Source: Ruminococcus sp. (GTDB lineage Bacteria; Bacillota; Clostridia; Oscillospirales; Ruminococcaceae). Taken from it: DNA of 64,000 nt. This document shows, one piece after another, positions 28,380-42,810 of this stretch (position 1 is the stretch's first letter; each line of letters opens with the position of its first letter). Location: assembly GCF_024692365.1 (NCBI RefSeq), contig NZ_JAILMR010000015.1, positions 1 to 64,000 of the forward strand, in the 5' to 3' direction. Under the pieces are notes generated by a model. That model did not search any database. It worked only from the letters and a program-made list of their open reading frames with translations, and was not told the origin of the DNA. A program made the translations under genes and the position numbers.

Positions 28380-29483
28380 TCAAAGCAGTTTCTTGCCCTT
28401 GATGTGTGCCGCTATCTTTGTGATATCGGTAACGTTGATATTTCCGTCATTGTTTACATCTGCGCGATACTCCTGCTCCGCGGTAAGCAGTTTTTTTCCC
28501 TTTATGTGCGCCGCAGTCTTGGTGATGTCGGTAACATTTATCTTGCCGTCATTGTTTACATCGCCCTTGATGCCAGCGTCTGACATTTCGACGAATCTGA
28601 ACTCATTGTCCTTTGCATACTTTTCAGCAGCAGTATCTTTATTGCCTTTTATGGTGAAACCTTTGACCTTATCTTTATAATATCTATTATCCTCAGAACT
28701 ATAATATCCGAAGGCTTTTTCTTCTATTTTCGCAACGCTGTCGGGTATAGTTACGTTTGTAAGTTTTGGGCAGTTATTAAATGCGAAATCGCCTATATAT
28801 GTTACACTGTCGGGTATATTGACATAGGTAAGTTTTTTACAATTTGCGAAAGCATAATAGTTTATCTTTATGACACCGTTCGGTATAGTTACGTTTGTCA
28901 GGCTTTTGCAGTCGATAAATGTTCCGGATTCAATGCTTTTGAGACCTTTGGATAACTTGATATCTGTCAGGTTTTCACATAGTTGAAATGCTTGGTCGCC
29001 TATGTTGGTTACGCTGTCGGGTATATTGATCTTGTTCAGGCTTGAACAATTCACAAATGCACATTTTCCTATGCTTGTTACGCTGTCAGGTATGGTTATA
29101 TTTGCCAGTTTTATGCAGCTGATAAAAGCATAGTCATCTATTTTTGTTACGCTAGTGGGTATAGTTACATTTGTCAGGCGGGTACACTCCATAAACATAC
29201 ATTCGCCTATGCTTGTCACACCATTTTCGATGACCACTTTTTTTATCTCTTTTCTTATAGCGGCAAATGACTGATTGTCGTGCATTTCCCCCTCACCGCT
29301 GATAGTCAGCGTGCCGTCTTCATCAAGCGTCCATATGACATTTTCACCCAATTTGCCGCTTGTGGGCTTTTCTGCCTCGGCACTCGCCATCAGCGTGAAA
29401 ACATCACTGTCCACATTCCCGAAGACTCCGCCTGCGCCGAATATCAGTGAAACAGCCAGCAATCCTGCCATTATCTTTTTCAT
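28380..29483 (-). CDS. Secreted BspA-type leucine-rich repeat protein with C-terminal dockerin
   Basis: The 367-residue protein has a signal peptide (about 1-33, MKKIMAGLLAVSLIFGAGG...). A short strand region WTLDEDGTLTISGEGEM follows, then about eight 23-residue LRR_5 repeats (pattern L-x-x-V-x-I-P-D-S-V-T-x-I-G-x-x-A-F-x-x-C). The type I dockerin (about 304-367) has two Ca-binding loops, DVNNDGKINVTDITK and DVNNDGNINVTDITK, each followed by AAHIKGKK. The LRR part is presumably a binding surface. The dockerin should attach the protein to a cohesin on a scaffoldin. ATG 29483 has GAGGTG 7 nt before it. It is divergent from the other dockerin gene. Confidence 0.9.
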   Translation of the reverse strand: MKKIMAGLLAVSLIFGAGGVFGNVDSDVFTLMASAEAEKPTSGKLGENVIWTLDEDGTLTISGEGEMHDNQSFAAIRKEIKKVVIENGVTSIGECMFMECTRLTNVTIPTSVTKIDDYAFISCIKLANITIPDSVTSIGKCAFVNCSSLNKINIPDSVTNIGDQAFQLCENLTDIKLSKGLKSIESGTFIDCKSLTNVTIPNGVIKINYYAFANCKKLTYVNIPDSVTYIGDFAFNNCPKLTNVTIPDSVAKIEEKAFGYYSSEDNRYYKDKVKGFTIKGNKDTAAEKYAKDNEFRFVEMSDAGIKGDVNNDGKINVTDITKTAAHIKGKKLLTAEQEYRADVNNDGNINVTDITKIAAHIKGKKLL

Positions 29484-29721
29484 AAATAAACACCTCACAT
29501 AAATTTTGAATACACTCTGCCGATGTTTTGGCAGATGAAAATTTGCTTACAGTTTTTTACATTTTTGCGAATTTTTCGCTCTTCAAATTATACATCTGTT
29601 TTTTTGAATGTCAAGACCGAAGCTGATTTTTTTCATCTTTTCTTTCGGTATTCTTCACATATCCACCACAGTGATTATGTGCAACCAAATGATTTTATAT
29701 TTAACTCGGACATATTTCTGT

Positions 29722-29949: not shown

Positions 29950-30025
29950 TTCGATATAGCTTAAAACTATACTGTGCGTTCGCTTTTTTATATACCGCAA
30001 ACGTCTGTTTGCACAGACTATACTA

Positions 30026-30118: not shown

Positions 30119-31987
30119 ATGAAGAGAACATCTGCAAAAATTTTCAGCGCCTTTTGTGCAGCACTGCTGACAGTAAACGCAGCAGCAGTAAGCGCTTTCG
30201 CTGAAGGCAAAGCACTCAAACCCGATTTCAAAAAAGCCGATGATGCTGTCCTCTACTGGGCAACTCAGGTCGGTGAAGATAAAATGATGTGGACAGATTC
30301 ACCCACAGCCTTCACCGTGGCAGATAACGGCTTCCTCTATATATGCTCTGCTGATTATATCGTAAAAATAGATAAATTCACAGGCAAAGAAGTTTCAAGA
30401 GCTAAAATGGCAGGTGCGGCAATGTACGCTACCAAAGGTCCCGCTTATGCTGACGGCAAAGTGTTCATGGCTCTCGATGGCGGTATTATACAGGCTTTCG
30501 ATGCTGAGACACTTACTTCTCTCTGGATATACACAAACAAGAACGGCGGCAGCCCCAAGTGCGATATCACTGTTGAAAACGGCTATCTCTATACAGGTTT
30601 CTGGAAAAGTGAGACCGATGATGCCGATTTCGTAAAGGTAAGCGTTGCAGATAAAGACACTGCCAAGACCGATGAAGTAAAGACCGCTGAATGGGAGTTC
30701 ACACATAAGGGCGGCTTCTATTGGACAACTGCTGTGATAGATGACGGCACGGTAATTTTCGGCGCTGAAAACAGCACTGATTCAGGAAGTGATAATCTCA
30801 GTCTGGTAGCACTTGACGATGCAACAGGCGAAAGGAAAAAATTCGCTGCATCTGCGAATGGCGATGTTCGCAGCAAGGTCGTACTCAAGGACGGCGTAGT
30901 GTATTTTACTTCCAGAAATAATAAGGTTTCTACCGCTTCACCCAAAACAGGAGAAGGCTGCACGCTCGACCTGAATCTGGCTCTTGATCTTCAGAATTTT
31001 GCCTGCACCAGCACTCCTATCGTTGAAAACGGCAGAATATATGTTACCCTGAATGGTCCAGGCTGGGATGCATACAACCACTCTCTCATCGTTGTACTTG
31101 ATGCAGTTGAAGAAGAAAACGGCAAAATAATGCCAAGGATAGCTTACGTTGTTGAAACTTCCGCTGCTTGTCAGGCTGAGGGCGTTTTCGCAGGCGTTGA
31201 TGAGGAAGGCTATAACGTTATATACTATGTTGAAAACGGTATGACAGGTATTGTCCGCAAGCTGAGAGATAAGGCAGGCATGAACGAACCTATCGATACT
31301 GTTGAGGAAACCGATACAGCAGGCAATAAGCATATCTGCCCTCCCGCAATTTTCACCCCTCAGGGCGACCACGCACAGTGCTGTGCAGTTGATCCTATTT
31401 ATGATGAAGAAACAGGACTCCTCTATATCCGTTACGATTCCTTCAATGTTCTTGCAATAGGCGAAACAGTTAAGTTCGATATCGAGTGCCCTGATATAAC
31501 AATTCACCCCAACGGTGTCAAGACTTTTGTCTTCAAGGCAGATGAATCTCCCGCCGCTAAGGAGTATACAATTGATGTCACAAACGGTCCCAAGAAGACC
31601 ATAGGCGATATCACAGCTAAGGATCTTACATTCAGCGTTGATAAGTTCACCGCCGATGATGAAGTTCTGACAGCTACCTTTGCTTACGGTCTGTACAACG
31701 GCAACGGCGAAAAGGCTTCCACATCTAACGATATCGATGTTCTTGTTGCCGAGACAGATAATCAGTATAAACGCGCGCTCGCACAGAAGGGCGATGTAAA
31801 CGGCGACGGTAAGATCAATGTTACCGATATCACAAAGCTTGCAGCACACATCAAGGGCAAAAAGACCCTTGATAAGTACAGCATCAATGCTGCCGATGTA
31901 AATGCTGACGGTAGGATAAATGTTACTGATATCATACGCGTTGCCGCACAGATAAAGGGCAAAAAGATGATAACAACCGAAAGATGA
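30119..31987 (+). CDS. Secreted PQQ-like beta-propeller protein with C-terminal dockerin
   Basis: The 622-residue protein has a signal peptide (about 1-28, ending AFAEG). Repeated propeller blades follow to about 450 (for example DKFTGKEVSRAKM, DAETLTSLWIY, DDATGERKKFA, GDHAQCCAVDPIYDEETG), each with the D-x-x-T-G turn of PQQ/quinoprotein-like repeats. A strand-rich spacer (about 455-550) leads to a type I dockerin (556-622) with loops DVNGDGKINVTDITK and DVNADGRINVTDIIR. No catalytic PQQ-enzyme residues are evident, so ligand binding or polysaccharide recognition on a cellulosome-like complex is likelier. GGAGAATGAAAA precedes the start. Confidence 0.88.
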   Translation: MKRTSAKIFSAFCAALLTVNAAAVSAFAEGKALKPDFKKADDAVLYWATQVGEDKMMWTDSPTAFTVADNGFLYICSADYIVKIDKFTGKEVSRAKMAGAAMYATKGPAYADGKVFMALDGGIIQAFDAETLTSLWIYTNKNGGSPKCDITVENGYLYTGFWKSETDDADFVKVSVADKDTAKTDEVKTAEWEFTHKGGFYWTTAVIDDGTVIFGAENSTDSGSDNLSLVALDDATGERKKFAASANGDVRSKVVLKDGVVYFTSRNNKVSTASPKTGEGCTLDLNLALDLQNFACTSTPIVENGRIYVTLNGPGWDAYNHSLIVVLDAVEEENGKIMPRIAYVVETSAACQAEGVFAGVDEEGYNVIYYVENGMTGIVRKLRDKAGMNEPIDTVEETDTAGNKHICPPAIFTPQGDHAQCCAVDPIYDEETGLLYIRYDSFNVLAIGETVKFDIECPDITIHPNGVKTFVFKADESPAAKEYTIDVTNGPKKTIGDITAKDLTFSVDKFTADDEVLTATFAYGLYNGNGEKASTSNDIDVLVAETDNQYKRALAQKGDVNGDGKINVTDITKLAAHIKGKKTLDKYSINAADVNADGRINVTDIIRVAAQIKGKKMITTER

Positions 31988-32046: not shown

Positions 32047-32130
32047 ACAGATCTGCGACACATGGAATGTTCGATAGTAAACAGCGTTATATCGTTTACT
32101 CAATTTATCAGTCCATGTGTGCAGGTCTGT
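32047..32130 (+). other. Long hairpin between the dockerin gene and the DUF4430 operon
   Basis: A 19-bp stem with one bulged G pairs 32047-32066 with 32112-32130. It includes ACACATGGA with TCCATGTGT, and CTGC with GCAG. Inside lies a 7-bp stem AGTAAAC/GTTTACT (32076-32100). It ends 26 nt before the DUF4430 gene and is followed by ATTGCTTTATTTT. It may be the terminator of the PQQ-dockerin gene or a leader element of the operon. I find no cobalamin-box sequence in it. Confidence 0.6.
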
Positions 32131-32155: not shown

Positions 32156-34075
32156 ATGATCGGAAAAGACCGTAAAAGTATAATAGCTTCCGCGGCAGCC
32201 GCCCTGATGCTTACAGCAGGGGCTGTCTGCTTTGCTGCGGGCTTTTACCGAAATGCCCCCCGCGAAGATACCCCCATCGGGATAGAACACCGCGAAGCCA
32301 TGCTTCCCGAGATATCCCCCGACGGACTTTCAGCTGATAACAGTACCCCCGAACAGGAAGATACAAGTTCCCGCAAAGATGAAAGTTCATCACCAGAAAG
32401 CACTCCCGATACCGATAACAGCCGTCCCATCTATGATGAAAACAGCGGTTCAGCCGATGCAGATAATTCCGCGGTTGTGATATATTCGCAAAATGACAGT
32501 CAGGAAACTTCCGATGATGACAGTTACCCCCAAACGGTCATCATTCAGGCACCTGACGACGTTAACACCCCTGCCAAGACCACCCCCGACGGCAGAGAAG
32601 CTGACCGCGAATACTTCACGACTTCCATATCTGACGGCGAAACAGTCACCGACAGCACCTACTTCTTCACCGTGACACATCTTGTAGAAAGCCTTGAAAC
32701 TGTGGGTTGTGATGTTGAAGTCAACGGTTCGCTGATGACAGGATTTGCGGGCAGAGTGCATCTAAGGGAAGGCGCTAACACCATAAGGGTCAGCTGTGCC
32801 TATAAAGATGCCGAAAACAAGGTGTACAGGGCTTTCCGTGACTACACCCTGTACCTTTCATCACCCGCCGCCGAGATAGTTACCGACCTTTTTGACCGTG
32901 AAGTCTACGACCCCGAATTTACATTCACAGCTTACTGCGAAGAGGGTCTTGAAGTAAGGCTGAACGGCAGGCTTATCACAGGCGAGGACAGCTTCACCGT
33001 AACACTCTCCGAGGGCGAGAACATGATAAAACTCACCTCGGGAAAAACCACTATGGATTTCTCGGTGACCTACATACCTGTCCGCACCCTTGCGATAATC
33101 ACCGACCTCAGCAGCTGCACCGTTTATACCGACAGCATAACTTTCAGCGCAAAGGCAGTTGGCGGAAATTCCCCAAAGCTTTCTGTTCTTGTGAACGACA
33201 AAGCCCTCCGCGGCAGTTATACTTTTACAGCCCCCCTTAACGAGGGCGACAATACAATCCGTCTGTTTGCAAAGGACGGCAACGAACAGACCGAACAGAC
33301 TTTCAAAGTAACTTCGCTTCACAATATCGATGAAAGCAAACTTCCGTATTTTGAAAGCATAAACCTTGACGATGGTATCACCGTTAAAGGAAGTACCTAT
33401 ACCCTCACCCTAAAAGCCGCCGATTGTGAAGGCAATCGTCTGTATTCAGATAATATAGAAGTCGTATGCGGCAGCACAGTTCCCTGCAAGTGGCAGGATG
33501 CTTCATGCACAGGCTACATATTGAAACTCCGCGGTGGCGAGAACACCGTCACCATAAAACTGCGTGACAGTACAGGCAGACAGAGCGAATTCTGCTATAA
33601 AATAAACTGCGAAACAGCCGAAGTCGGTGAAGAAGTTGGCAGGATACAGATATCTGTCAATGCTGACCTTGTAGGGCTTGGCACACTTTGCGAAAGTGAC
33701 AGCTTCCCCGTGCTTGAGGGCGAAACAGGTTTCGATACGATGGTGAGGTTCCTTGAAGAGAACGGATATGAAGTGACCTACCGCGGCAGTGCCAACAGCA
33801 GATATCTCGCAAGGATATCCATGGCGGGAAGATTCGCGGGTGCTGAACTAACCGATAAAGCAAGGGCTTATCTTGCGGGCGCGGGCGTTACCCCAAACGA
33901 CAGCCGCGATGATGATTCACTCGGCGAATTCGATTACACAGCGGGTTCGGGCTGGATGTACAGCCGCAACGGCAAAAAGCCCGCCTATGCAATGACCTCG
34001 GCAGTATTTGCCGACGGCGAGAGAGTAGCCCTTGTGTTCTCCCTCGACCTTGGAAATGATATGAGTGGTGAATGA
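32156..34075 (+). CDS. Exported multi-domain protein with C-terminal DUF4430 (transcobalamin beta-like)
   Basis: The 639-residue protein has a signal/anchor helix (about 7-26, ASAAAALMLTAGAVCFAAGF) and a Ser/Asp/Pro-rich spacer (about 40-150). Several Ig-like strand repeats follow (about 165-490), each with a G-E-N-x-I-x-x-x motif (REGANTIRVSC, SEGENMIKLTS, NEGDNTIRLFA, RGGENTVTIKL). The C-terminal DUF4430 domain (about 500-635) has GETGFDTMVRFLEENGYEV and GSGWMYSRNGKKPAY. DUF4430 corresponds to the C-terminal beta domain of transcobalamin/intrinsic factor. The next gene encodes the other half. ATG 32156 has CGGAGG 6 nt upstream. Confidence 0.82.
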   Translation: MIGKDRKSIIASAAAALMLTAGAVCFAAGFYRNAPREDTPIGIEHREAMLPEISPDGLSADNSTPEQEDTSSRKDESSSPESTPDTDNSRPIYDENSGSADADNSAVVIYSQNDSQETSDDDSYPQTVIIQAPDDVNTPAKTTPDGREADREYFTTSISDGETVTDSTYFFTVTHLVESLETVGCDVEVNGSLMTGFAGRVHLREGANTIRVSCAYKDAENKVYRAFRDYTLYLSSPAAEIVTDLFDREVYDPEFTFTAYCEEGLEVRLNGRLITGEDSFTVTLSEGENMIKLTSGKTTMDFSVTYIPVRTLAIITDLSSCTVYTDSITFSAKAVGGNSPKLSVLVNDKALRGSYTFTAPLNEGDNTIRLFAKDGNEQTEQTFKVTSLHNIDESKLPYFESINLDDGITVKGSTYTLTLKAADCEGNRLYSDNIEVVCGSTVPCKWQDASCTGYILKLRGGENTVTIKLRDSTGRQSEFCYKINCETAEVGEEVGRIQISVNADLVGLGTLCESDSFPVLEGETGFDTMVRFLEENGYEVTYRGSANSRYLARISMAGRFAGAELTDKARAYLAGAGVTPNDSRDDDSLGEFDYTAGSGWMYSRNGKKPAYAMTSAVFADGERVALVFSLDLGNDMSGE

Positions 34076-35259
34076 TGTTGAAGATTTCTGCGGTGCTGTT
34101 GACTGCGGCAGTGATGATGTGTACTCCGATATCTGCTTCGGCGCTGGATACAAAACAGGCTGAGGGCTACGCGCGGGGGATAGTCACCTATGAAAAACAT
34201 AAAAACGGTATCCCCGAGGGCGACAGCCTGCTTTCGGGCAGGATAGCCGAGGACGCTGGCTATGACAGTTCTGACTGGCTGGCAATAGGCGCTGTAAGGT
34301 CGGGGCTTGAAAAGGATACAAGTGAATATTTCTCGGTGTGGAAAAATCGCATTGAAGAAGAATACTCCGATGATACCGCCATTGACCGCCTTAACGCCAC
34401 CGACTGGCACCGCGCAGTGCTGACGGGTATATGCCTTGGGGCTAATCCCAATGATATCTCTGATGTTGACCTGCTTGGCAGAGGCACTTATCTTCGGGGC
34501 GAGGGCAGACCTCTTGATGCACAGGGTCTTAACGGCGAGATATGGGCGCTAATAGCTATGGACAGCTGTGACTGGAAACTTCCCGAGAACGCAAAGCCCG
34601 ACAGGGCGGAGATAATCCATACGATAATAAACAGCCGCAATTCCGACGGCGGATTTTCCCTGACCGTCGGCGATGGCAGAAGTGACCCCGATATCACGGC
34701 GATGGCTTTGCAGGCGCTTTCCCCCTACCGATGCTGTGAAGAGACCGAGGATACGGTAGCAAGGGCTGTGGATTATCTGGCGGAAAGTCAGAGTGATAAT
34801 GATAACTGCGAAACCACAGCGCAGATAATATGCGCACTGTGCTGTCTTGATATCGACCCAGATGAGGACAGCAGATTCGCAGGGCTGACCGATGAACTGA
34901 TAAGCTACGCCAATGATGACGGCGGATTCGCCCATAACAAGGGCGGCGAAAGCAGTGAACTGGCTTCATCACAGGCGCTTATCGCCCTTTGCAGTATACA
35001 AAGGCTTAGGGCAGGTGAAAGGTCGGTATACGATATGAACGGGGGACTTCCCGAAAAGCCCAGAAAGACTACGCTTGCAGAAATGACAGCGGCTAAGAAC
35101 AGAAACACTGAACCCCCCGCTTCGGGCAATGCCCCCGAGGGTATGCCAAAAAGCAAAAAAATGCTGATAGCCGTTTCGGGATCGATAATAGTTTTCGCCG
35201 CGGCGGCAGTGGTCGGCGGTGTTATGATGCGCAGGAGAAAGGAAAAGGAAAATGAATAG
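34072..35259 (+). CDS. Membrane-anchored alpha/alpha-barrel (prenyltransferase/terpene-cyclase-like) protein, transcobalamin alpha-like
   Basis: The 395-residue protein has a signal peptide (about 1-24). Its alpha/alpha repeats contain the family motif NSDGGFSLTVGDG and a later NDDGGFAHNKGGES (D-G-G-F is the QW/PFTB repeat core), with ITAMALQALSPY and SSQALIALCSI. One C-terminal membrane helix (about 362-382) and a basic tail complete it. The same fold forms the alpha domain of transcobalamin. The start overlaps the DUF4430 gene by 4 nt (ATGA), so the two are coupled. No catalytic Asp-rich DXDD motif of cyclases is evident, which favours binding over catalysis. Confidence 0.78.
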   Translation: MMLKISAVLLTAAVMMCTPISASALDTKQAEGYARGIVTYEKHKNGIPEGDSLLSGRIAEDAGYDSSDWLAIGAVRSGLEKDTSEYFSVWKNRIEEEYSDDTAIDRLNATDWHRAVLTGICLGANPNDISDVDLLGRGTYLRGEGRPLDAQGLNGEIWALIAMDSCDWKLPENAKPDRAEIIHTIINSRNSDGGFSLTVGDGRSDPDITAMALQALSPYRCCEETEDTVARAVDYLAESQSDNDNCETTAQIICALCCLDIDPDEDSRFAGLTDELISYANDDGGFAHNKGGESSELASSQALIALCSIQRLRAGERSVYDMNGGLPEKPRKTTLAEMTAAKNRNTEPPASGNAPEGMPKSKKMLIAVSGSIIVFAAAAVVGGVMMRRRKEKENE

Positions 35260-36193
35260 TATCCCCGTAAAAATAAAAGAACAGCTTACAAAGGTCATAG
35301 TCGGTAAGGACGATACTGTTGAACTGCTGATAGCCGCAGTACTGGCAGGCGGTCATGTACTGCTGGAGGATACTCCCGGTACAGGCAAAACTACCCTTGC
35401 GCTGGCGCTTTCAAAGTGCATGGGTCTGAAATTCCGAAGGATACAGATGACCCCCGATACTACGGCTTCGGATATAACAGGCTATTCGGCTTACGATGAG
35501 GGCAAGGGCGAATTCGTCTACCACAAGGGTGCGGCAATGACCGACCTTCTTCTTGCGGACGAATTGAACAGAACATCGGGCAGAACACAGGCGGCACTTC
35601 TTGAAGCGATGGAAGAACGCAGGCTGACTGTCGATGGCGTGACCTATGACCTCTCAAAGAACTTCGCAGTAATAGCGACCCAGAACCCCGCAGGCACAGC
35701 AGGAACTTCTGCCATACCCCTTTCTCAGCTTGACAGATTCATGGTAAGGCTTCGTCTTGGTGCCCCCGACAGGGAAGCCCTGAGAAAACTGCTGACCGAC
35801 CGTATCCTCACTGACCCCCTTGATAAGACCGAACAGGTTTGTTCCGCGGAAGACCTTGATGGTCTCAGGGCTGATATCAACAAGGTGACTATCAAGGACG
35901 AGATAATGGATTATATCTGCGACCTTATGCAGGCGGCGGCAGAGTGTAAAGATACCGAGGGCGGTATATCCCCCCGAGGTGCGCTGGCGCTTTGCAGGAT
36001 AGTGAAAGCAGGGGCTTTTCTGGACGGCAGGGACTATGTGGTTCCCAGCGATATCCGCGCCTGCTTTATCCCAGTGTGCGCCCACAGGGCTGTGCTGACC
36101 AGAGAAGCAAGGGCGGCAGGTAAAACTCCAGAGGAGGTTTTTGAAGCCATATTCAAAAGTCTGCCTTACCCCGAAAACAAGGAGAATGTATGA
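35252..36193 (+). CDS. MoxR-family AAA+ ATPase
   Basis: The 313-residue protein has Walker A PGTGKTTLA (42-50), Walker B LLLADELNR, sensor ATQNP and SQLDRFMVRLRLG, then a C-terminal lid (about 205-300). MoxR ATPases act as chaperones in maturation of secreted or membrane complexes and typically neighbour DUF58 and transglutaminase-like genes, as here. It overlaps the alpha-barrel gene by 8 nt and the DUF58-like gene by 4 nt. Confidence 0.92.
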   Translation: MNSIPVKIKEQLTKVIVGKDDTVELLIAAVLAGGHVLLEDTPGTGKTTLALALSKCMGLKFRRIQMTPDTTASDITGYSAYDEGKGEFVYHKGAAMTDLLLADELNRTSGRTQAALLEAMEERRLTVDGVTYDLSKNFAVIATQNPAGTAGTSAIPLSQLDRFMVRLRLGAPDREALRKLLTDRILTDPLDKTEQVCSAEDLDGLRADINKVTIKDEIMDYICDLMQAAAECKDTEGGISPRGALALCRIVKAGAFLDGRDYVVPSDIRACFIPVCAHRAVLTREARAAGKTPEEVFEAIFKSLPYPENKENV

Positions 36194-37110
36194 AACTGCT
36201 GATATTCGCAGTATGCTTTGCGGCGACACTGGCGGCGGGCTTTTTCTCGGTGATAGGGCTGTACATCGCGGCGGGACTGCTGGCGGTGCTTGTCATGGCA
36301 ATGATAGAAAATCTGGCAGATAATTACAAGGTGAAAGTCAGCTATGAGAAGCTTTTTCTGAACAAAAGCGAAGCACCCGCGCTTATATTCGGCGGCAAAA
36401 AACGTCTGCGCGGCGAAGTCGTCTGCCAGAACATGGTCACAGGAGAGATCTCGCGCACCAACACCGATATCCGCAAAGACAGGACACTGACCCTGCCCCC
36501 GCAGGATAAATGCGGCACACTGCTGATAAGGTATTTTAAGTTTTACAGATATGACCTGCTGGGTCTGACGAAGCGTTTGTCGGTGTGTTATGCAGAGGAC
36601 TGTGTGACGGTACTCCCCGATGGACCCTCTGCCGAACTTGAAGATATCATCACCGAAACCACAGGCGGCGAGGAACGCGACGGCGCAAGAGAAGCACGCC
36701 CCGATGAACCCTGGCGCAGGGTCAACCTGAAACTGACCCACCGTTTCAGCAAGCCCTATATAAACACCTATTCCCCCGACAAAAAGGGCGAACTGTGGCT
36801 GGCGGCTGACTGCGGTCACGGTGACAGGGCTGATATCATCGCGGAGAAGATATGCGGCATCGCACAGATCTTGACATCAAAAGGCATGGGCTACAATCTT
36901 GCCCTGCCCGACAATGAGGGCGGTATTCGTCTGCTGAAAAATACTGACAGCGAAAATGTTCAGCGCGAGATACTGACCATGCCCCTTTATAACACAAATG
37001 CGCACAGCATAATGGTCAGACTGACAGAAGAACTCGATAATGATGCCGAGATACTGGCATTCACGACGAACGATGCGGTCAACGATGAAAGGATAACGAT
37101 AATAAACTGA
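36190..37110 (+). CDS. DUF58-like membrane protein
   Basis: The 306-residue protein has two N-terminal hydrophobic segments (about 3-42) and a soluble strand-rich part. The motif DEPWRRVNLKLTHRFSKPY corresponds to the DUF58 D-x-x-R-x-I-x-W...A-R signature, here diverged. DUF58 proteins pair with MoxR ATPases. The start overlaps the moxR stop by 4 nt. It has no VWA MIDAS motif that I can see. Role in the cluster: probably assembly or activation of the surface receptor, by inference. Confidence 0.75.
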   Translation: MKLLIFAVCFAATLAAGFFSVIGLYIAAGLLAVLVMAMIENLADNYKVKVSYEKLFLNKSEAPALIFGGKKRLRGEVVCQNMVTGEISRTNTDIRKDRTLTLPPQDKCGTLLIRYFKFYRYDLLGLTKRLSVCYAEDCVTVLPDGPSAELEDIITETTGGEERDGAREARPDEPWRRVNLKLTHRFSKPYINTYSPDKKGELWLAADCGHGDRADIIAEKICGIAQILTSKGMGYNLALPDNEGGIRLLKNTDSENVQREILTMPLYNTNAHSIMVRLTEELDNDAEILAFTTNDAVNDERITIIN

Positions 37111-37123
37111 ACGGAGCATTACC

Positions 37124-38941
37124 ATGAGTACCGAGGGTAACAAATTTGCCGCGCCTGTTTTCGGGGCGGCGGCAGGACTTTGTGCATATATGCTTGGCGG
37201 GTTGTACGCGGGAGCGGCGGCTCTGCTTTTGTGCGCCCTTACGGCATTCCTTGTGGGACGTTTCGGGCGCAAATGGGGCTTTCTGCCTGTTATCGGCGGA
37301 GCTCTGGCGGCGGGGATATTCCATGAGAGATTTCTGGCGGAATGTGCCCTTTGTGCGGATAATGCCGAGTTTATGTATTCGATAAAGCGGGGGCTGACGT
37401 ATACCCCCGTGGCAGGCGGAACGGACAGCGCGTATATCCTGCTTGTGATAGCCTGCGGGCTCATCTGCGCGGTGTATGCGGCGGCGGGCGTAAGGGTGAC
37501 GGCGGTCATTCTCGGGGCTTTTTCGGCGCTGGGCTATGTGCTTTTCGGCGGGAACGCCTTTGTGCTTTGCGGGTCGCTGGCGCTGGCGGTATCGGTGTGC
37601 TGTTTCGGTGCTGATGATATCCGCAAAGCGGGTCTTGCAGTCGGTGCGGCTGTGCTGGCGCTCCCTGCGGCGTTTATCCATCTGCCCGAACTTCCGCCAT
37701 TTGGTGAAGTTTCAGCGTCCGGCGGCGAAAGCCTGTACCTTGCAGAAGAATATGAACAGCCCCACTGCACCAAGGCACAGTATGCCCGAGGTTCTGCTAT
37801 AATGACGGCACTTGGGGGCGAGGGATTTTCCCCCGAAACGCAGACTTCCAAGCTTCTTGAAGCAGCTGGAACAGCTCTGCCCACAGAGGAAGTTGAAGTC
37901 AGCGGGGAATATGTTCCCGCGAATGTATGCGGTGAGATATCGGACGGAAAATTCACGGTCTGCCCGCATCTCAACGAGAATATTTTCAGGCTGACAGCAC
38001 GTTTGCAGGAGGGCGATTATCTCGACTGCGAGGGGCTTTACAGGGAGTACGTCTATTCGGCTTACGGAAGTCTGACAGAAAAAGAGAACTCAAATCTCCG
38101 TGATATCGCCGAGATAGATGGCACTCTGCCGTTGGATAAAAAGCTTGCCGCGGTTAAAAGCGCGGTGCGGGAAAAGTTATCCGACAGAAGCACAGACAGC
38201 ACAGATTTCGCAGAACTGACGGTCGGACTTGCGCGAAGCTGCGGCATTGCGGCGAGAGAAGTCAAAGGCATATACTTTGAAGATATGCCAGATGGCGGTC
38301 GCGCAAAGCTTGCCGATGGCGAACGCAGAACATGGTCGGAAGTATACATAGACGGCGCTGGCTGGGTGGTTTTCGAGACTGCGCCCATGTATGAGGAAGT
38401 TTCTCCGCTGCTGCCCGAGGGTGCTTCGGCTGACGGTGAAAAATCCGACGAAGACAGCCTGACTTCGGGGGCTGAGGATATAATCTACACTGCCGCCCCG
38501 CCGAGAACAGCTGCAGAGATACGCGAAGAAAAGAAAACGGAAAAGCAGCCGCTTTGGGTGCTGACCGCAGTGCCTGCGGGTGCAATTGTCGCTCTGTTGG
38601 CGGCGGGTCGTATAAGGGCGGCTGTCAGAAGAAAAAATCGCAAAACCCGCGATACAGCGGCGGCGCTGAAAGCATGGCATTTTCAGGGAAAAGAGCTGAT
38701 GGAGCTTGCACTCGGCATCAGCGGACTAAGCCCCGAAGAACTAGCAGAGCGAGCAGAGGGACTTCTCGGAGAACGTTTCAAAGAATCGGAACGTGCCTAT
38801 GAAAAGCTGAGATTTTCGGACGATCCCCCCGATGAAAGCTCACTCACCGCGGCAACGAGGTTTTATGAAGAATCACGGCGGGCTTGCAGAAAGCAGGGGC
38901 TTTTGAAAAGTCTGGGGCTCTGGCTTAGAGGATTTATTTAA
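37124..38941 (+). CDS. TgpA-like membrane protein with an inactivated transglutaminase domain
   Basis: The 605-residue protein has about six hydrophobic segments in 1-190, a soluble domain with a transglutaminase-like core (about 340-440), one more helix (about 475-495) and a cytoplasmic helical tail. The core DSTDFAELTVGLARSCGIAAREVKG aligns with G-x-C-x-x-F-A...L-R-x-x-G-I-x-A-R. The catalytic Cys is Ser/Thr here, the His position is Thr in RRTWSEVYI, and the Asp site is VFETAP. It is therefore probably a non-catalytic peptide-binding domain. Together with MoxR and DUF58 it forms the well-known trio. Confidence 0.8.
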   Translation: MSTEGNKFAAPVFGAAAGLCAYMLGGLYAGAAALLLCALTAFLVGRFGRKWGFLPVIGGALAAGIFHERFLAECALCADNAEFMYSIKRGLTYTPVAGGTDSAYILLVIACGLICAVYAAAGVRVTAVILGAFSALGYVLFGGNAFVLCGSLALAVSVCCFGADDIRKAGLAVGAAVLALPAAFIHLPELPPFGEVSASGGESLYLAEEYEQPHCTKAQYARGSAIMTALGGEGFSPETQTSKLLEAAGTALPTEEVEVSGEYVPANVCGEISDGKFTVCPHLNENIFRLTARLQEGDYLDCEGLYREYVYSAYGSLTEKENSNLRDIAEIDGTLPLDKKLAAVKSAVREKLSDRSTDSTDFAELTVGLARSCGIAAREVKGIYFEDMPDGGRAKLADGERRTWSEVYIDGAGWVVFETAPMYEEVSPLLPEGASADGEKSDEDSLTSGAEDIIYTAAPPRTAAEIREEKKTEKQPLWVLTAVPAGAIVALLAAGRIRAAVRRKNRKTRDTAAALKAWHFQGKELMELALGISGLSPEELAERAEGLLGERFKESERAYEKLRFSDDPPDESSLTAATRFYEESRRACRKQGLLKSLGLWLRGFI

Positions 38942-39007
38942 TTCATAATTGTTGGAGGGGGCTGACGGTGACTGCATAGCCCGTTCCCAAATTTTAGAAT
39001 AATAGTC

Positions 39008-39175
39008 ACACGGCAAAGTCGTTAAACATGGCAAACAGCGAGAGCCCACTGCCGACACAGTCGCAGTTAGCGCCTCTTGCGGCGAGAGTGAACGACGGGA
39101 GCGGAGCGACCAAAGAGAACGAAGCCGCAAGCCCTCACAGGCGCGAAGGTCGAGCGTCGGGGGTATGGGGGTTGA
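39008..39175 (-). repeat. Dispersed intergenic repeat, copy B (inside the DUF4430-ECF operon)
   Basis: The block order matches 25205-25396 on the opposite strand: AGCGTCGGGGGTATGGGGG (39153-39171), ACACAGTCGCAGTTAGCGC, ATGGCAAACAGC and GGCAAAGT. The flanks on both sides (to about 38945 and 39205) contain GACGGTGACTGC, twice, a sequence related to the internal GCGACTGCGTCGG of copy A. The gap 38942-39222 is otherwise empty. As at copy A, it lies between two genes of one operon. Confidence 0.75.
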
Positions 39176-39222
39176 CGGTGACTGCGTCGACCGTTGCCCC
39201 CATTTAGATAGGAGTTGAGAGC

Positions 39223-39708
39223 ATGAAAATTCGGGATATAGCTATATATGCAGGGGCGGCGGCTGTTCTGGCGGCGGCTTTTATGTTCGTGGATATCAAA
39301 ACTCCCGAGGAATATTATGCTCTTCATCCCGCGGCAGTTACCGAGGACGGCGAGTTCGTCACGATAAAGGTGGATTGCTCGGCGGCGGTGGGCAGGGCTG
39401 AGGGTCTGCCCGAGGACGGTACTATGCTTGAGGGTAAGTACGCCCTGACTTCGGGGGAAAGCGTCTACGATGTTACCGCGAGAGTGCTGAGGTATGAGGG
39501 ACTGGACTTCGCAACAAAGGGCGGCAGAGCAGTGTATATCAGCGGTATCGGCGGACTTGAAGAGTTCGACATGGGCGCGGAAAGCGGCTGGATATACACG
39601 GTGAACGGCGATACCCCCGGTATCAACTGCGGTGATTATCAGCCCGAGAGCGGTGACGAGATAGAGTTCAGGTACGTTGACAAGTTTTTCGGGGAGGCGG
39701 GCAGATGA
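39223..39708 (+). CDS. Small DUF4430 (transcobalamin beta-like) exported protein
   Basis: The 161-residue protein has one N-terminal helix (about 7-24), a linker, and a single DUF4430 domain (about 45-158). It contains TSGESVYDVTARVLRYEGLDF, MGAESGWIYTVNGDTPG and GDEIEFRYVD, the expected strand and W-x-Y motifs. This is a minimal version of the C-terminal domain of the first gene in the cluster. ATG 39223 follows AGGAG. It overlaps ecfT by 4 nt. By analogy with transcobalamin, the W/Y segment could cover a bound corrinoid; this is inference. Confidence 0.85.
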   Translation: MKIRDIAIYAGAAAVLAAAFMFVDIKTPEEYYALHPAAVTEDGEFVTIKVDCSAAVGRAEGLPEDGTMLEGKYALTSGESVYDVTARVLRYEGLDFATKGGRAVYISGIGGLEEFDMGAESGWIYTVNGDTPGINCGDYQPESGDEIEFRYVDKFFGEAGR

Positions 39709-40565
39709 GAGGATTTGCGCCGCTTTCGCGGCTTGCGGCGGTCATTGGGGCGCTGATGGTGATAATGTTCTCGCGTTCGCTGAGTGCGGCGTGTGCGGGA
39801 TTTATCGCGGGGCTTATCTGCCTGCTACTGAATGAGGGCGGGCGCAGGGCAATTAAAGCAGGGGCGGCAGGACTGGCGGTCTGCGCGGCTACTGCGATAA
39901 TCGACCCCCTGTTCTCGCATAGAGGAATGACCATACTGCTTTTCGTGAACGACCGTCCCTACACGCTTGAATCCATGCTTTACGGGCTTGAACTCGGGCT
40001 TTCACTAAGCGGCGCGGGAGTATGGCTGACGGTGCTGAGAGGTCTGGTGAACGAGCGTGAAATGCTTGGCATCTTCGGGAGATTTTCCCCTAAACTGGCT
40101 ATGACTATCAGCATGACCCTCGGCTTCATACCGCGGCTTATACGGAAAAGCAGGCGTATCCGCGAAGCACAGCGGGGCGCGGGACTTTTCAGCGGTGACA
40201 GCCCCTCGGGACGGCTGGAAGAAGTTTCCGCGGTGTTTACAGCCTGCATGGCGTGGTCGGCAGAAGCCGCGGCAGGTGCGGCGCAGTCCATGAACGCCCG
40301 CGGATTCGGAACTCATCGTGTGACATTTTCGGACAGGCGTACTTTGCGCCTTAAAGACTATCTGTTCATTTCGATCGTGTTACTGCTGACGATCAGTGGG
40401 CTGGTGCTATCTGCACTTGGCGGGGCAACGGAATTCTTCCCGCGGGTAAGTTTTGGCAGATATGAGATGGCTATGGCGGCGGTATATATGGCGGAATGTA
40501 TTCTGCCCATAATTATTCTTGCAAAGGAGAGGCTTCGATGGACGCTGTGTACTGCGAGGGGCTGA
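39705..40565 (+). CDS. ecfT: ECF transporter transmembrane protein EcfT
   Basis: The 286-residue protein has about six membrane helices. The cytoplasmic coupling helices contain PRLIRKSRRIREAQRGAG and AAAGAAQSMNARGFG, the two Ala-Arg-Gly type motifs by which EcfT contacts the ATPase grooves. EcfT holds the S component and both ATPases. It overlaps the small DUF4430 gene by 4 nt and the EcfA gene by 28 nt. Confidence 0.92.
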   Translation: MRGFAPLSRLAAVIGALMVIMFSRSLSAACAGFIAGLICLLLNEGGRRAIKAGAAGLAVCAATAIIDPLFSHRGMTILLFVNDRPYTLESMLYGLELGLSLSGAGVWLTVLRGLVNEREMLGIFGRFSPKLAMTISMTLGFIPRLIRKSRRIREAQRGAGLFSGDSPSGRLEEVSAVFTACMAWSAEAAAGAAQSMNARGFGTHRVTFSDRRTLRLKDYLFISIVLLLTISGLVLSALGGATEFFPRVSFGRYEMAMAAVYMAECILPIIILAKERLRWTLCTARG

Positions 40566-42124
40566 CTTTTAAATATAATGATGCGAAAGCGCCTGCGCTG
40601 GAGGGTATCGACCTGAAAGTGGGCAGGGGCGAGCTTGTGCTGCTTATGGGGCGTTCGGGCTGCGGAAAGACTACTCTGCTGAAGCTGTTAAAGCCCGAGA
40701 TAGCGCCTTTCGGTGAGTTGTCGGGGAGCATATCGTTGCTTGGAAAGAAAGCGGAAAGCCCTCAGCCTATGGTGGGCTATGCGGCGCAGTCCCCCGAGGA
40801 AAGCTTCGTCAGTGATACGGTTTACGGCGAGATAATGTTCGCCCCCGAAAATGCGGGGCTTAGTGCGGAAGAAGTCCGTCGGGCGGCGGCTGAGACTATA
40901 ACTCGTTTCGGTCTGGGTAAGTTTCTTCGCAGAAAGCTCGATGAACTATCGGGCGGCGAAAAACAGCTGGTCAGCCTTTGTGCGGCTCTGGTAATGCAGC
41001 CCGAGATCCTTCTTCTTGACGAGCCTTTCAGCCGACTTGACCCCGTAACTGCGGAGGATATCAGCAGTCTGATACTGCGTCTGAACCGTGAAGCGGGCAC
41101 AACTGTCATCATCGCCGAGCACAGCACCGAGCTTTTGTTTGCTGAATGCGACAGGGTCATATTCATGGAGAACGGTCGTATCACGGCGAATACTTCACCG
41201 CGGGAGATGTGCGGAGTATCGGCGGCGGATAGTTTTTTGCCTGCGGCGGCGAGGGCTTTCCTCGGGCATGAGAAATGTCCGCTGACGGTGAGAGAGGGCA
41301 GGCGTTTGCTTGCTGAGATACCTCACGCGAAAGAAGTTGCTTTGCCCGAAGCAAGAGTTTTCGGTGAAGAAGCACTGAGGACTGACGGACTGAGATTCGC
41401 TCTTGAAAGGCGGGGTGAGGATATCCTTGACGGCGTGGATATTGTTCTGCACAAGGGGGAACATCTGGCGCTGATAGGTGCTAACGGCTGCGGAAAAACC
41501 ACGCTTTTGCGATGTCTTGCGGGGCTGACAAAGGCGTATTCGGGTACGGTGAAGGTCTTCGGAAAACGAATGAAAAAGCCTGCGGGGATGGTGGCGTTAC
41601 TGCCGCAGGAAGCTCGTGACATATTCATTCAGCCCACGGTGCGTGAGGACTATATCTTCGCCCTGAAAGCTATGGAAAAGCCCGAAAAAATGGCGGACGA
41701 AATGCTGGCGAAGATGGGCTGTGAGCATCTTGCGGATGTTCACCCCTACGACCTTAGCGGCGGCGAAACTCAACTTTGCACCCTCGGCAGAGTGCTTTTG
41801 TGTGAGCCCGATATACTTCTGCTGGACGAGCCTACAAAGGGTCTTGATGCAGTTTCGCGCAAGGCTTTCGGCGGGCTGATACGCGGTCTTTGCAATGAGG
41901 GCAAGGCTGTGCTGACAGTGACTCACGACCTCGAAAGCGCGGCAGAGTTGGCTGACAGCTGTGCCATACTTTGCGGCGGTCGGGTGGAAAGCCTGATGCC
42001 CGCGGGAGAGTTCTTCGCGCGGGCGGGAAGCCTCAGCACAGCGGCAGGCAGGATATCCCGCGGCGAAGTCGAAAATGCATACACGGTCGAAAGACTGCGG
42101 GCGGCTGTATGGGGGGCAGACTGA
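40538..42124 (+). CDS. Fused double ECF ATPase (EcfA1-EcfA2)
   Basis: The 528-residue protein carries two ABC domains. Domain 1 has Walker A GRSGCGKT (38-45), signature LSGGEKQ (137-143) and Walker B ILLLDEPFSRLDP. Domain 2 has Walker A GANGCGKT (314-321), signature LSGGETQ (407-413) and Walker B ILLLDEPTKGLD. Both have a switch His (AEHST, VTHDL). Single-chain double EcfA proteins are typical of clostridial ECF importers. The start is ATG 40538 behind GGAGAGG; the longer frame lies within ecfT. Confidence 0.94.
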   Translation: MDAVYCEGLTFKYNDAKAPALEGIDLKVGRGELVLLMGRSGCGKTTLLKLLKPEIAPFGELSGSISLLGKKAESPQPMVGYAAQSPEESFVSDTVYGEIMFAPENAGLSAEEVRRAAAETITRFGLGKFLRRKLDELSGGEKQLVSLCAALVMQPEILLLDEPFSRLDPVTAEDISSLILRLNREAGTTVIIAEHSTELLFAECDRVIFMENGRITANTSPREMCGVSAADSFLPAAARAFLGHEKCPLTVREGRRLLAEIPHAKEVALPEARVFGEEALRTDGLRFALERRGEDILDGVDIVLHKGEHLALIGANGCGKTTLLRCLAGLTKAYSGTVKVFGKRMKKPAGMVALLPQEARDIFIQPTVREDYIFALKAMEKPEKMADEMLAKMGCEHLADVHPYDLSGGETQLCTLGRVLLCEPDILLLDEPTKGLDAVSRKAFGGLIRGLCNEGKAVLTVTHDLESAAELADSCAILCGGRVESLMPAGEFFARAGSLSTAAGRISRGEVENAYTVERLRAAVWGAD

Positions 42125-42810
42125 TGAAGAAAAGTTTGAAAGCGGCGCTGTTTGCGGGGTGCATGGCACTTATCGCAGGCGGGTGTCTGCTGTTCGGTGA
42201 CAGGTCTGTCAGCTGGCTGATAGGTTCAGCGGGCATCGCGGTATGCGGTATATTTTTCGCAAGATTCGAGAAGAAAGAAACGACATCGGGGGAGATAGCC
42301 CTTGCGGCTGTGATGACTGCGCTTTCGGTAACAGGGCGGATAATTTTCGCGCCCTTGCCCGCATTCAAGCCCTGCGCGGCAGTGATAATACTGGCGGGGA
42401 TTTATCTGGGGGCTGAACAGGGTTTTCTGGTGGGTGCGCTGACGGCGCTGATATCCAACTTCTTTTTTACCCAAGGGATATGGACGCCTTTTCAGATGAT
42501 GATATGGGGTCTGACAGGTCTGCTGGCGGGGCTTATCGGAGACCGCCTGAAAAAGAACAGACTGATGCTGTGCATTTTCGGGGCTCTGGCGGGGCTGTGC
42601 TACTCGGTGTTCATGGACGTTTGCAGCGTGCTATGGCTTGGCGGCGGCTTCACCCCCGAGAGGTTCCTTGGGCTGACCATTGCATCGGCATGGTTCACAG
42701 TAAGCTACATGGTTTCGAACTGCATATTCCTGCTGATGTTCGTGAAAACCGCGGAGCGGATATTAGAGCGGCTGCGGGGGAAGTATGGGATAACAAAAGG
42801 CGGGGGATAG
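42124..42810 (+). CDS. ECF transporter S component (substrate-binding membrane subunit)
   Basis: The 228-residue protein has about six membrane helices. The segments ALAAVMTALSVTGRIIFAPLPAFKP and IILAGIYLGAEQGFLVGALTALISNFFF resemble the helix 1-3 pattern of ECF S proteins, including the small-residue A-x-x-x-A face used to bind EcfT. The start codon overlaps the EcfA stop by one base (TGATG). The substrate is not readable from the sequence; clustering with transcobalamin-like proteins suggests a corrinoid. Its stop codon lies inside the following terminator stem. Confidence 0.85.
   Translation: MKKSLKAALFAGCMALIAGGCLLFGDRSVSWLIGSAGIAVCGIFFARFEKKETTSGEIALAAVMTALSVTGRIIFAPLPAFKPCAAVIILAGIYLGAEQGFLVGALTALISNFFFTQGIWTPFQMMIWGLTGLLAGLIGDRLKKNRLMLCIFGALAGLCYSVFMDVCSVLWLGGGFTPERFLGLTIASAWFTVSYMVSNCIFLLMFVKTAERILERLRGKYGITKGGG

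Follow-up and report, generated by a model that had tools for sequence, protein, structure and literature searches.

Gene content of the cluster

The stretch of DNA analysed here (the window; 64,000 nucleotides, positions 1 to 64,000 of contig NZ_JAILMR010000015.1, Ruminococcus sp. assembly GCF_024692365.1) sits on a 116.5-kb contig of a 3.68-Mb genome that is 93.8% complete, and carries ten clustered genes on the forward strand whose predicted products point to the surface capture and import of corrinoids, namely vitamin B12 and its relatives (Table 1). A preliminary description of the window had listed nine coupled genes running in one direction, mostly with overlaps of 1-28 nt, and had proposed that an alpha/alpha-barrel protein and DUF4430 proteins form a surface corrinoid trap feeding the S component of an energy-coupling factor (ECF) importer. 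All nine open reading frames (ORFs) are present on that strand, with junctions of -4, -8, -4, +13, +281, -4, -28 and -1 nt for the starts used; the 281-nt gap before the gene for DUF4430-S had gone unreported, and the beta-propeller gene ahead of that for DUF4430-L, the tenth of the cluster, had been overlooked.

Table 1 Genes of the predicted corrinoid uptake cluster, in window coordinates
Feature	Position	Strand	Supporting matches
Secreted PQQ-type beta-propeller with C-terminal dockerin; first cluster gene	30119..31987	+	Pfam PQQ_2 5.7e-11, Dockerin_1 8.4e-13
DUF4430-L: N-terminal hydrophobic span, cadherin/Ig-like domains, divergent C-terminal DUF4430	32156..34075	+	Pfam DUF4430 E 0.00097, below cut-off
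Putative barrel half: signal peptide, alpha/alpha toroid, C-terminal hydrophobic span, basic tail MRRRKEKENE	34072..35259	+	Prenyltransferase-type toroid 4.6e-05, below cut-off
MoxR-type AAA ATPase	35252..36193	+	AAA_3 2.6e-48, AAA_lid_2 6.2e-22
DUF58-family protein	36190..37110	+	By orthology; window copy without Pfam DUF58 match
TgpA-like membrane protein, several hydrophobic spans	37124..38941	+	Transglut_core 2.7e-09; DUF4129-like tail 0.00091, below cut-off
Putative DUF4430-S half: one N-terminal hydrophobic span, then transcobalamin-like beta-grasp domain	39223..39708	+	PF14478 5.2e-14, over curated cut-off
EcfT	39705..40565	+	CbiQ/EcfT 0.00027, below cut-off; orthologs in same place in relatives
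EcfAA, two fused ECF ATPases	40538..42124	+	ABC_tran 1.7e-55, two stretches; TIGR04520 7.6e-81, below two-domain-protein cut-off
S component, CbrT family	42124..42810	+	PF07155 7.8e-12; 6fnp_A E 2.1e-7 (single sequence), 1.4e-21 (family profile)

A search for the S component across 100 genomes returned 52 matches in 51 of them, the window's own genome included, and wide stretches (loci labelled L) were taken for 50 of these matches, leaving out the window itself and a match at a contig edge in genome G011. Gene absences in relatives refer to the stretches retrieved, several of which end at contig ends. The gene order of the window recurs in 11 of the 50 wide loci, far beyond chance. Of these, L041 has DUF58 and TgpA joined in a single ORF, and in L035 the contig end truncates DUF4430-L; the nearest relatives with the same operon all belong to one genus.

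The cluster encodes EcfT, two EcfA ATPase domains and an S component together, as expected of an ECF transporter, with EcfT below the Pfam cut-off. The window S component, searched alone, has CbrT of ECF-CbrT (6FNP) as its best PDB chain, and a 22-member S-component profile reaches the same chain at E 1.4e-21 (80.5 bits) compared with 0.0048 for the next ECF S chain, the comparison being one among solved structures. A firm grouping with a non-corrinoid vitamin family, which the preliminary description had named as fatal to its proposal, was not what emerged: the S component groups with CbrT, a corrinoid family, and ECF-CbrT imports cobalamin and cobinamide (PMC5997447). In five distant relatives (L071, L073, L075, L076 and L077), EcfA and the S component occupy a single ORF of 860-971 aa.

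Putative transcobalamin-type receptor, fused and split

In 10 of the 50 wide loci the barrel and the DUF4430 domain form one protein, barrel first as in transcobalamin. An alignment of such fused proteins (A1), used to scan genome contigs, gave 399 loci, and figures for the '80 fused loci' refer to the best 80 of these, which have the same arrangement; together with the ten wide loci, minus five shared contigs, they amount to 85 distinct fused loci. L067, a fused form from the window's genus, is the same contig as L153. Fused-protein loci with a named source come from Ruminococcus, R. flavefaciens, Oscillospiraceae, Lachnospiraceae and other Clostridia, many of them from the rumen or gut. The fused gene lies beside EcfT, EcfA and S in 73 of the 80 loci, beside S only in four and beside an incomplete set in three; among the ten wide fused loci, S is found in all, accompanied by EcfT and EcfA in nine, with L063 having S only. 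As a side observation, the fused genes of L115, L123, L127 and L143 adjoin S with no EcfT or EcfA in the retrieved stretch, as if sharing an ECF module encoded elsewhere.

Between the barrel and DUF4430, 76 of 77 fused ORFs picked by two motifs contain two hydrophobic spans separated by a loop of 4-15 residues, often resembling KKRxxKN, and by the positive-inside rule both domains would lie outside the membrane. The window barrel ends with one span and the tail MRRRKEKENE, and DUF4430-S starts with one span followed by VDIKTPEEYY, which aligns with TDFxSxEEYY of the fused proteins. The window halves end and start at the inter-span loop, and therefore the split sits in the short inner loop, with the topology kept. 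DUF4430-S aligns with the C-terminal part of the fused proteins, and the window barrel scores 130.5 bits against the fused-barrel profile.

The likeness to transcobalamin emerges, weakly, from a broad 20-member DUF4430 profile, whose four best PDB sequences are all transcobalamin-2 (5no0, E 0.0012; 4zrp, 7qbf and 2bb5, E 0.018). Plain sequence searches with the single window barrel and DUF4430-S sequences, and with the fused-protein profile, gave no transcobalamin match. DUF4430-S qualifies as a member of the exported, transcobalamin-like clade of the SLBB superfamily by its PF14478 match and N-terminal span; the single-chain arrangement of toroid then beta domain is found in the fused relatives, the window having two chains.

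DxDD is the catalytic motif of class II terpene cyclases. The sequences of solved structures nearest to the barrel profile are squalene-cyclase-type proteins (E 3.6e-14) and prenyltransferase beta subunits (E 1.7e-4), which could suggest that the barrel acts outside the cell as an enzyme, resembling terpene cyclases or prenyltransferases or working on corrinoids, instead of forming half a binding site. We regard this as very improbable: the barrel is predicted to be exported and tethered to the membrane, the fourth place of its DxDD-like motif is I, L, V, M or A and never D in 19 of 19 rows, and in relatives it is fused to a transcobalamin-type domain and linked to riboswitches. Membership of the class II terpene cyclases fails on that missing fourth D. 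The preliminary description had held that a catalytic cyclase unrelated to transcobalamin would overturn its proposal; the nearest solved structures are indeed terpene cyclases, but the catalytic motif is incomplete.

Cobalamin riboswitches ahead of related operons

Riboswitches were sought with the Rfam models RF00174 and RF01689 and two covariance models of our own, R1 and R2. R1 comprises only 12 base pairs and served in one search alone, that made for the window copy. The training set of R2 held 20 sequences, 18 from L082-L161 plus L057 and L062 (whose contigs recur as L151 and L142), and those 20 matches hold by construction because the training sequences are the same. A cobalamin riboswitch precedes the system genes in 67 of the 80 fused loci (19 long classic elements and 48 short or AdoCbl-II ones), at -108 to 1123 nt from the first system gene (median 145; negative values denote overlap with the earliest possible start). 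The remaining 13, in which none was found, are L090, L097, L105, L109, L113, L115, L118, L123, L127, L133, L143, L147 and L153; in L097 and L113 the stretch starts less than 130 nt from the fused gene. The R2 matches with E < 1e-6 among the 80 fused loci, 48 in number, all lie on the operon strand ahead of the operon, as do all seven such matches in a set made up of the window and 48 of the 50 relatives' loci.

Rfam cut-offs alone lower the count to 32 of 75 fused loci. Direct Rfam scans of 24 of the 80 placed an upstream element above the cut-off in 11, by RF00174 in L083, L084, L086, L087, L088, L100, L101 and L114 and as AdoCbl-II in L103, L107 and L117. RF00174 was sought in all 75 fused-locus genomes and RF01689 in 50 of them; for the genomes behind L083-L161, sites were mapped by coordinates alone, several falling coincidentally inside coding sequence, and a motif test of these coordinate-mapped riboswitches retained 41 of 75 by script and 43 of 75 after each sequence was read. 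Searches of more than 40 genomes use stricter filters, and weak matches are lost in them.

Among the 50 wide loci, RF00174 has matches upstream of the operon and on its strand in 13, eleven of them above the Rfam cut-off, against a chance expectation of about 0.02 such loci (81 matches in 100 genomes; 3 kb upstream, one strand, about 2.5 Mb per genome). RF01689 and R2 add L062, L052, L054 and L061, for a total of 17 of the 50 loci of relatives. Four of the 11 loci with the window layout have a riboswitch before the beta-propeller gene: L040, L041 and L055, and L044 below the Rfam cut-off. The window S component is 37-43% identical to the S proteins of the riboswitch-linked fused type in L052, L057, L058, L061 and L062.

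Layouts and accessory surface proteins

The 50 wide loci comprise 11 with the window layout, 10 fused, 8 barrel-less and one (L056) in which barrel and DUF4430 are split yet adjacent, with no trio of MoxR, DUF58 and TgpA genes; 20 are cut short or more different. A tree of 69 S components places the window-layout and barrel-less rows in one clade (100/98), the barrel-less rows adjoining L044 and L055. Fused rows surround that clade, and L056 groups with fused rows. Splitting of barrel and DUF4430 seems to have occurred more than once, and its direction is only inferred because the tree is rooted at its midpoint. In the barrel-less L042 and L045 the DUF4430 protein begins with a lipoprotein-like signal, and in L045 and L047 the DUF4430-ECF set is preceded by what we take, from sequence, to be a Spo0A-like response regulator and a SpoIVB-like PDZ protein.

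Of the 11 relatives sharing this layout, 10 have a beta-propeller homolog in front of DUF4430-L (L032-L034, L036, L037, L039, L040, L041, L044 and L055), and the eleventh, L035, ends before that position. The propeller profile matches BamB and quinoproteins. A BtuG-like propeller was considered and rejected by sequence, BtuG (3DSM) not being among the 26 PDB sequences matched at E up to 1. Separately, in a genome of another family, a relative of the window propeller (L078, 7092-8588; phmmer E 1.1e-9) has a cobalamin riboswitch on one side and DUF4430 on the other.

Fused loci carry another surface protein: in 73 of the 80, a gene lying between riboswitch and barrel, or else between S and barrel, codes for an exported product of 225-519 residues, which ends in a P-x-T-G-type motif in 51 of the 73; NF033846 (NPXTG anchor) is over its cut-off in the copy from L117. 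Copies from L117, L100, L087 and L114 gave no Pfam family over cut-off. DUF4430 domains are present in relatives of the exported protein from L052 and L054, and it may therefore be a divergent second DUF4430 protein. Its profile matches none of the ten window proteins, and the window carries the beta-propeller and DUF4430-L in its place.

Four further features of the window adjoin these genes. A palindrome near GATATAGTTTAAAACTATATC at 29953-29973, upstream of the beta-propeller gene, shows few changes across 7 of 7 sequences compared (window, L032, L033, L034, L036, L037 and L039) and is a possible operator. A long hairpin at about 32047-32130, between the beta-propeller and DUF4430-L genes, has a z-score of -4.16, with 0 of 200 shuffles as stable, and its sequence is conserved in L032 and L033, and in part in L034. 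The gap at 38942-39222 between TgpA and DUF4430-S contains two near-copies of GGGGGCTGACGGTGACTGC. Beside the cluster, at 28380-29498, lies a divergent gene encoding BspA-type leucine-rich repeats and a dockerin.

The MoxR/DUF58/TgpA trio

All three trio genes were found only in the 11 window-layout loci, in each of which they are coded between the two putative receptor halves; none occurs in the retrieved stretches of the 85 distinct fused loci. Of six DUF58-type orthologs scanned, that of L037 is over the cut-off (26.4 bits), four are just below it and that of L036 has no match. MoxR/DUF58/TgpA-type gene sets also occur in contexts unrelated to this one, among them the bifidobacterial PFNA cluster.

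The preliminary description had given the trio the task of assembling or opening the complex, a claim for which we found no support beyond gene position. Its placement exactly between the halves in 11 of 11 trio loci, with window genes that overlap or stand 13 nt apart, would suit a working role in the system, in which it puts the split receptor together, closes it or opens it; given that it was not found in the retrieved stretches of the 85 fused loci or of the split locus L056, and that such gene sets occur elsewhere, we consider this role doubtful. The position between the halves is suggestive and no more, and our guess is that the trio is an envelope maintenance factor added later. Anti-phage defence was also considered for the trio and set aside, MoxR giving only weak AAA matches and DUF58 and TgpA none.

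B12 metabolism of the genome and its relatives

The window's genome encodes a B12-binding_2 domain in an 800-aa, MetH-like frame and has neither CbiD nor a PduO-type adenosyltransferase, the only salvage gene searched. CbiD is present in 4 of 51 genomes with the S component compared with 20 of 49 without it (Fisher p 1.3e-4, not corrected for relatedness), and the one genome of the same genus that has CbiD (G007) has no S component. The MetH-like gene, the lack of CbiD and the CbiD distribution agree with a bacterium that uses corrinoids but does not build the corrin ring itself. In the same-genus loci L042 and L043, MetH stands directly before DUF4430-EcfT-A-S (metH 1.7e-143, below the cut-off of the full-length MetH model). 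MetH requires a complete cobamide.

The import of a corrinoid precursor or fragment, such as cobinamide or a lower-ligand base, in place of complete cobamides appears unlikely to us. The MetH that adjoins the system in L042 and L043, with its need for the complete cofactor, speaks against this idea, which it tests weakly; in its favour stand the lack of a PduO-type adenosyltransferase in the genome and the uptake of cobinamide besides cobalamin by CbrT (PMC5997447).

Assignment of the substrate

We interpret the window operon as one for the capture and import, or scavenging, of corrinoids, at a probability of roughly 0.82. This assignment has good indirect support: the S component is of the CbrT family, the DUF4430 profile matches transcobalamin-2, barrel and DUF4430 are fused in transcobalamin order in relatives, and cobalamin riboswitches head most related operons. 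The two-span topology of the fused proteins, the MetH neighbours of L042 and L043 and the MetH-like gene without CbiD in the window's genome speak for it as well. The homology of the parts, their gene linkage, the fused and split topology and the riboswitches of relatives are all computational observations.

Several observations weigh against the corrinoid assignment. Neither Rfam models at gathering and loose thresholds nor R1 and R2 found a cobalamin riboswitch in the window, and RF00174, RF01689 and both of our models found none in its genome, the best match in the window and genome search scoring 11.4 bits on the wrong strand; RF00174 likewise finds none in the genomes behind the closest relatives, L032-L037 and L039. 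This lack of a riboswitch at the window copy is the main reason for caution. Pfam assigns the S component, over the cut-off, to the broad, riboflavin-named PF07155, and its weak NCBIfam match, below cut-off, is to a folate-type family. A narrower DUF4430 profile yields chance-level matches only, none of them transcobalamin, the broad profile being required, and the barrel profile matches the toroid fold class without reaching transcobalamin by sequence. In the eight barrel-less loci, all from the window's genus, DUF4430 comes ahead of EcfT-EcfA-S and the retrieved stretch shows no barrel (several are cut by contig ends). The CbiD pattern is weaker (p 0.06) once that genus is set aside, the presence of the S component is unrelated to that of PF02607 (44 of 51 genomes with S and 42 of 49 without), and the genome encodes a 758-aa Meth_synt_2 protein, MetE-like and of MetE length, and because of this B12 is not obviously essential.

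After the loss of the riboswitch, the splitting of the receptor, the insertion of the trio and the replacement of the surface protein, the window copy could have moved to another ligand, a different tetrapyrrole or vitamin. The missing riboswitch, the restriction of the trio to window-layout loci and the riboflavin-based family name are compatible with such a shift, and ECF transporters can take other tetrapyrroles, for example heme in S. lugdunensis (PMC7299338). We nevertheless judge it quite unlikely, given the identity of the window S component to riboswitch-linked S proteins and its match to CbrT when searched alone, the riboswitch retained in L040, L041, L055 and, weakly, L044 despite their identical layout, and the MetH-like gene without CbiD in the genome itself. 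The window copy has probably kept the ancestral corrinoid substrate.

Discussion

Under the corrinoid assignment, the barrel and DUF4430-S would make up a two-part bacterial receptor of the transcobalamin type, both anchored in the membrane by a single span and both exposing their domains on the outside. The pair would enclose and bind a corrinoid and pass it on to the S component of CbrT type; this, working with EcfT and the fused EcfAA, would bring it into the cell at the expense of ATP. The beta-propeller and DUF4430-L may be accessory surface proteins for capture or tethering. The surface trap feeding the S component that the preliminary description had envisaged thus survives as a corrinoid reading, on the S family, DUF4430, the fusion and the riboswitches of relatives, shorn of the role it had assigned to the trio.

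The concept of corrinoid capture by such proteins is not new and was published in 2007 as a genomic prediction: Burroughs, Balaji, Iyer and Aravind described bacterial toroid-SLBB proteins in operons with CbiO, CbiQ and a second, paralogous SLBB protein, named B12 scavenging as the likely role, proposed a transfer to animals and reported a beta-propeller fused to an SLBB domain (PMC1796856). In their account of the toroid-SLBB proteins we saw no S-component family and no split topology, and the words riboswitch, MoxR, transglutaminase and split are absent from the main text. In the open-licence PubMed Central literature we found no description of the riboswitch control, the CbrT assignment, the split in a membrane hairpin or the trio. 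The parts of the cluster are ordinary and the kind of system is known; the new evidence for its substrate is strong, though indirect, and the layout with its split is unusual.

ECF-CbrT of Lactobacillus delbrueckii (6FNP; PMC5997447) shares with the window the S sequence family, EcfT and two EcfA ATPase domains, whereas the window has a dedicated module with a fused EcfAA, predicted to transport corrinoids, and a putative surface receptor. Vertebrate transcobalamin, intrinsic factor and haptocorrin resemble the fused relatives in having the toroid N-terminal to a DUF4430-type beta domain, the DUF4430 profile matching transcobalamin-2; the bacterial form differs in being anchored in the membrane by a hairpin, in comprising two chains in the window and in having a barrel unmatched by sequence. 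BtuG/BtuB of Bacteroides (PMC6143338) also pairs a surface protein that catches B12 with a transporter, as is predicted for the window, and a beta-propeller occurs in both, but the transporter and envelope are different and the window propeller resembles BamB and quinoproteins by sequence.

A bolder idea, in our view improbable, is that MoxR with DUF58 and TgpA actively opens or resets the two anchored halves once closed round a corrinoid, as an energised, reversible transcobalamin, and that the riboswitch-controlled fused form of gut Clostridia is close to the stock of the animal B12 carriers.

The identification of B12 transport systems was an open problem in a 2019 survey of gut genomes (PMC6593275), and corrinoid capture by Gram-positive bacteria of the gut and rumen is poorly known. 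With the present results, gene regulation and the transporter both lend independent support to the domain-based prediction of 2007, across dozens of loci of gut and rumen Clostridia that include named Ruminococcus flavefaciens strains, and the prediction becomes directly testable. A bacterial counterpart of transcobalamin that occurs naturally in fused and split forms would offer material for studying the origins of animal B12 carriers and the trapping of a vitamin between two domains.

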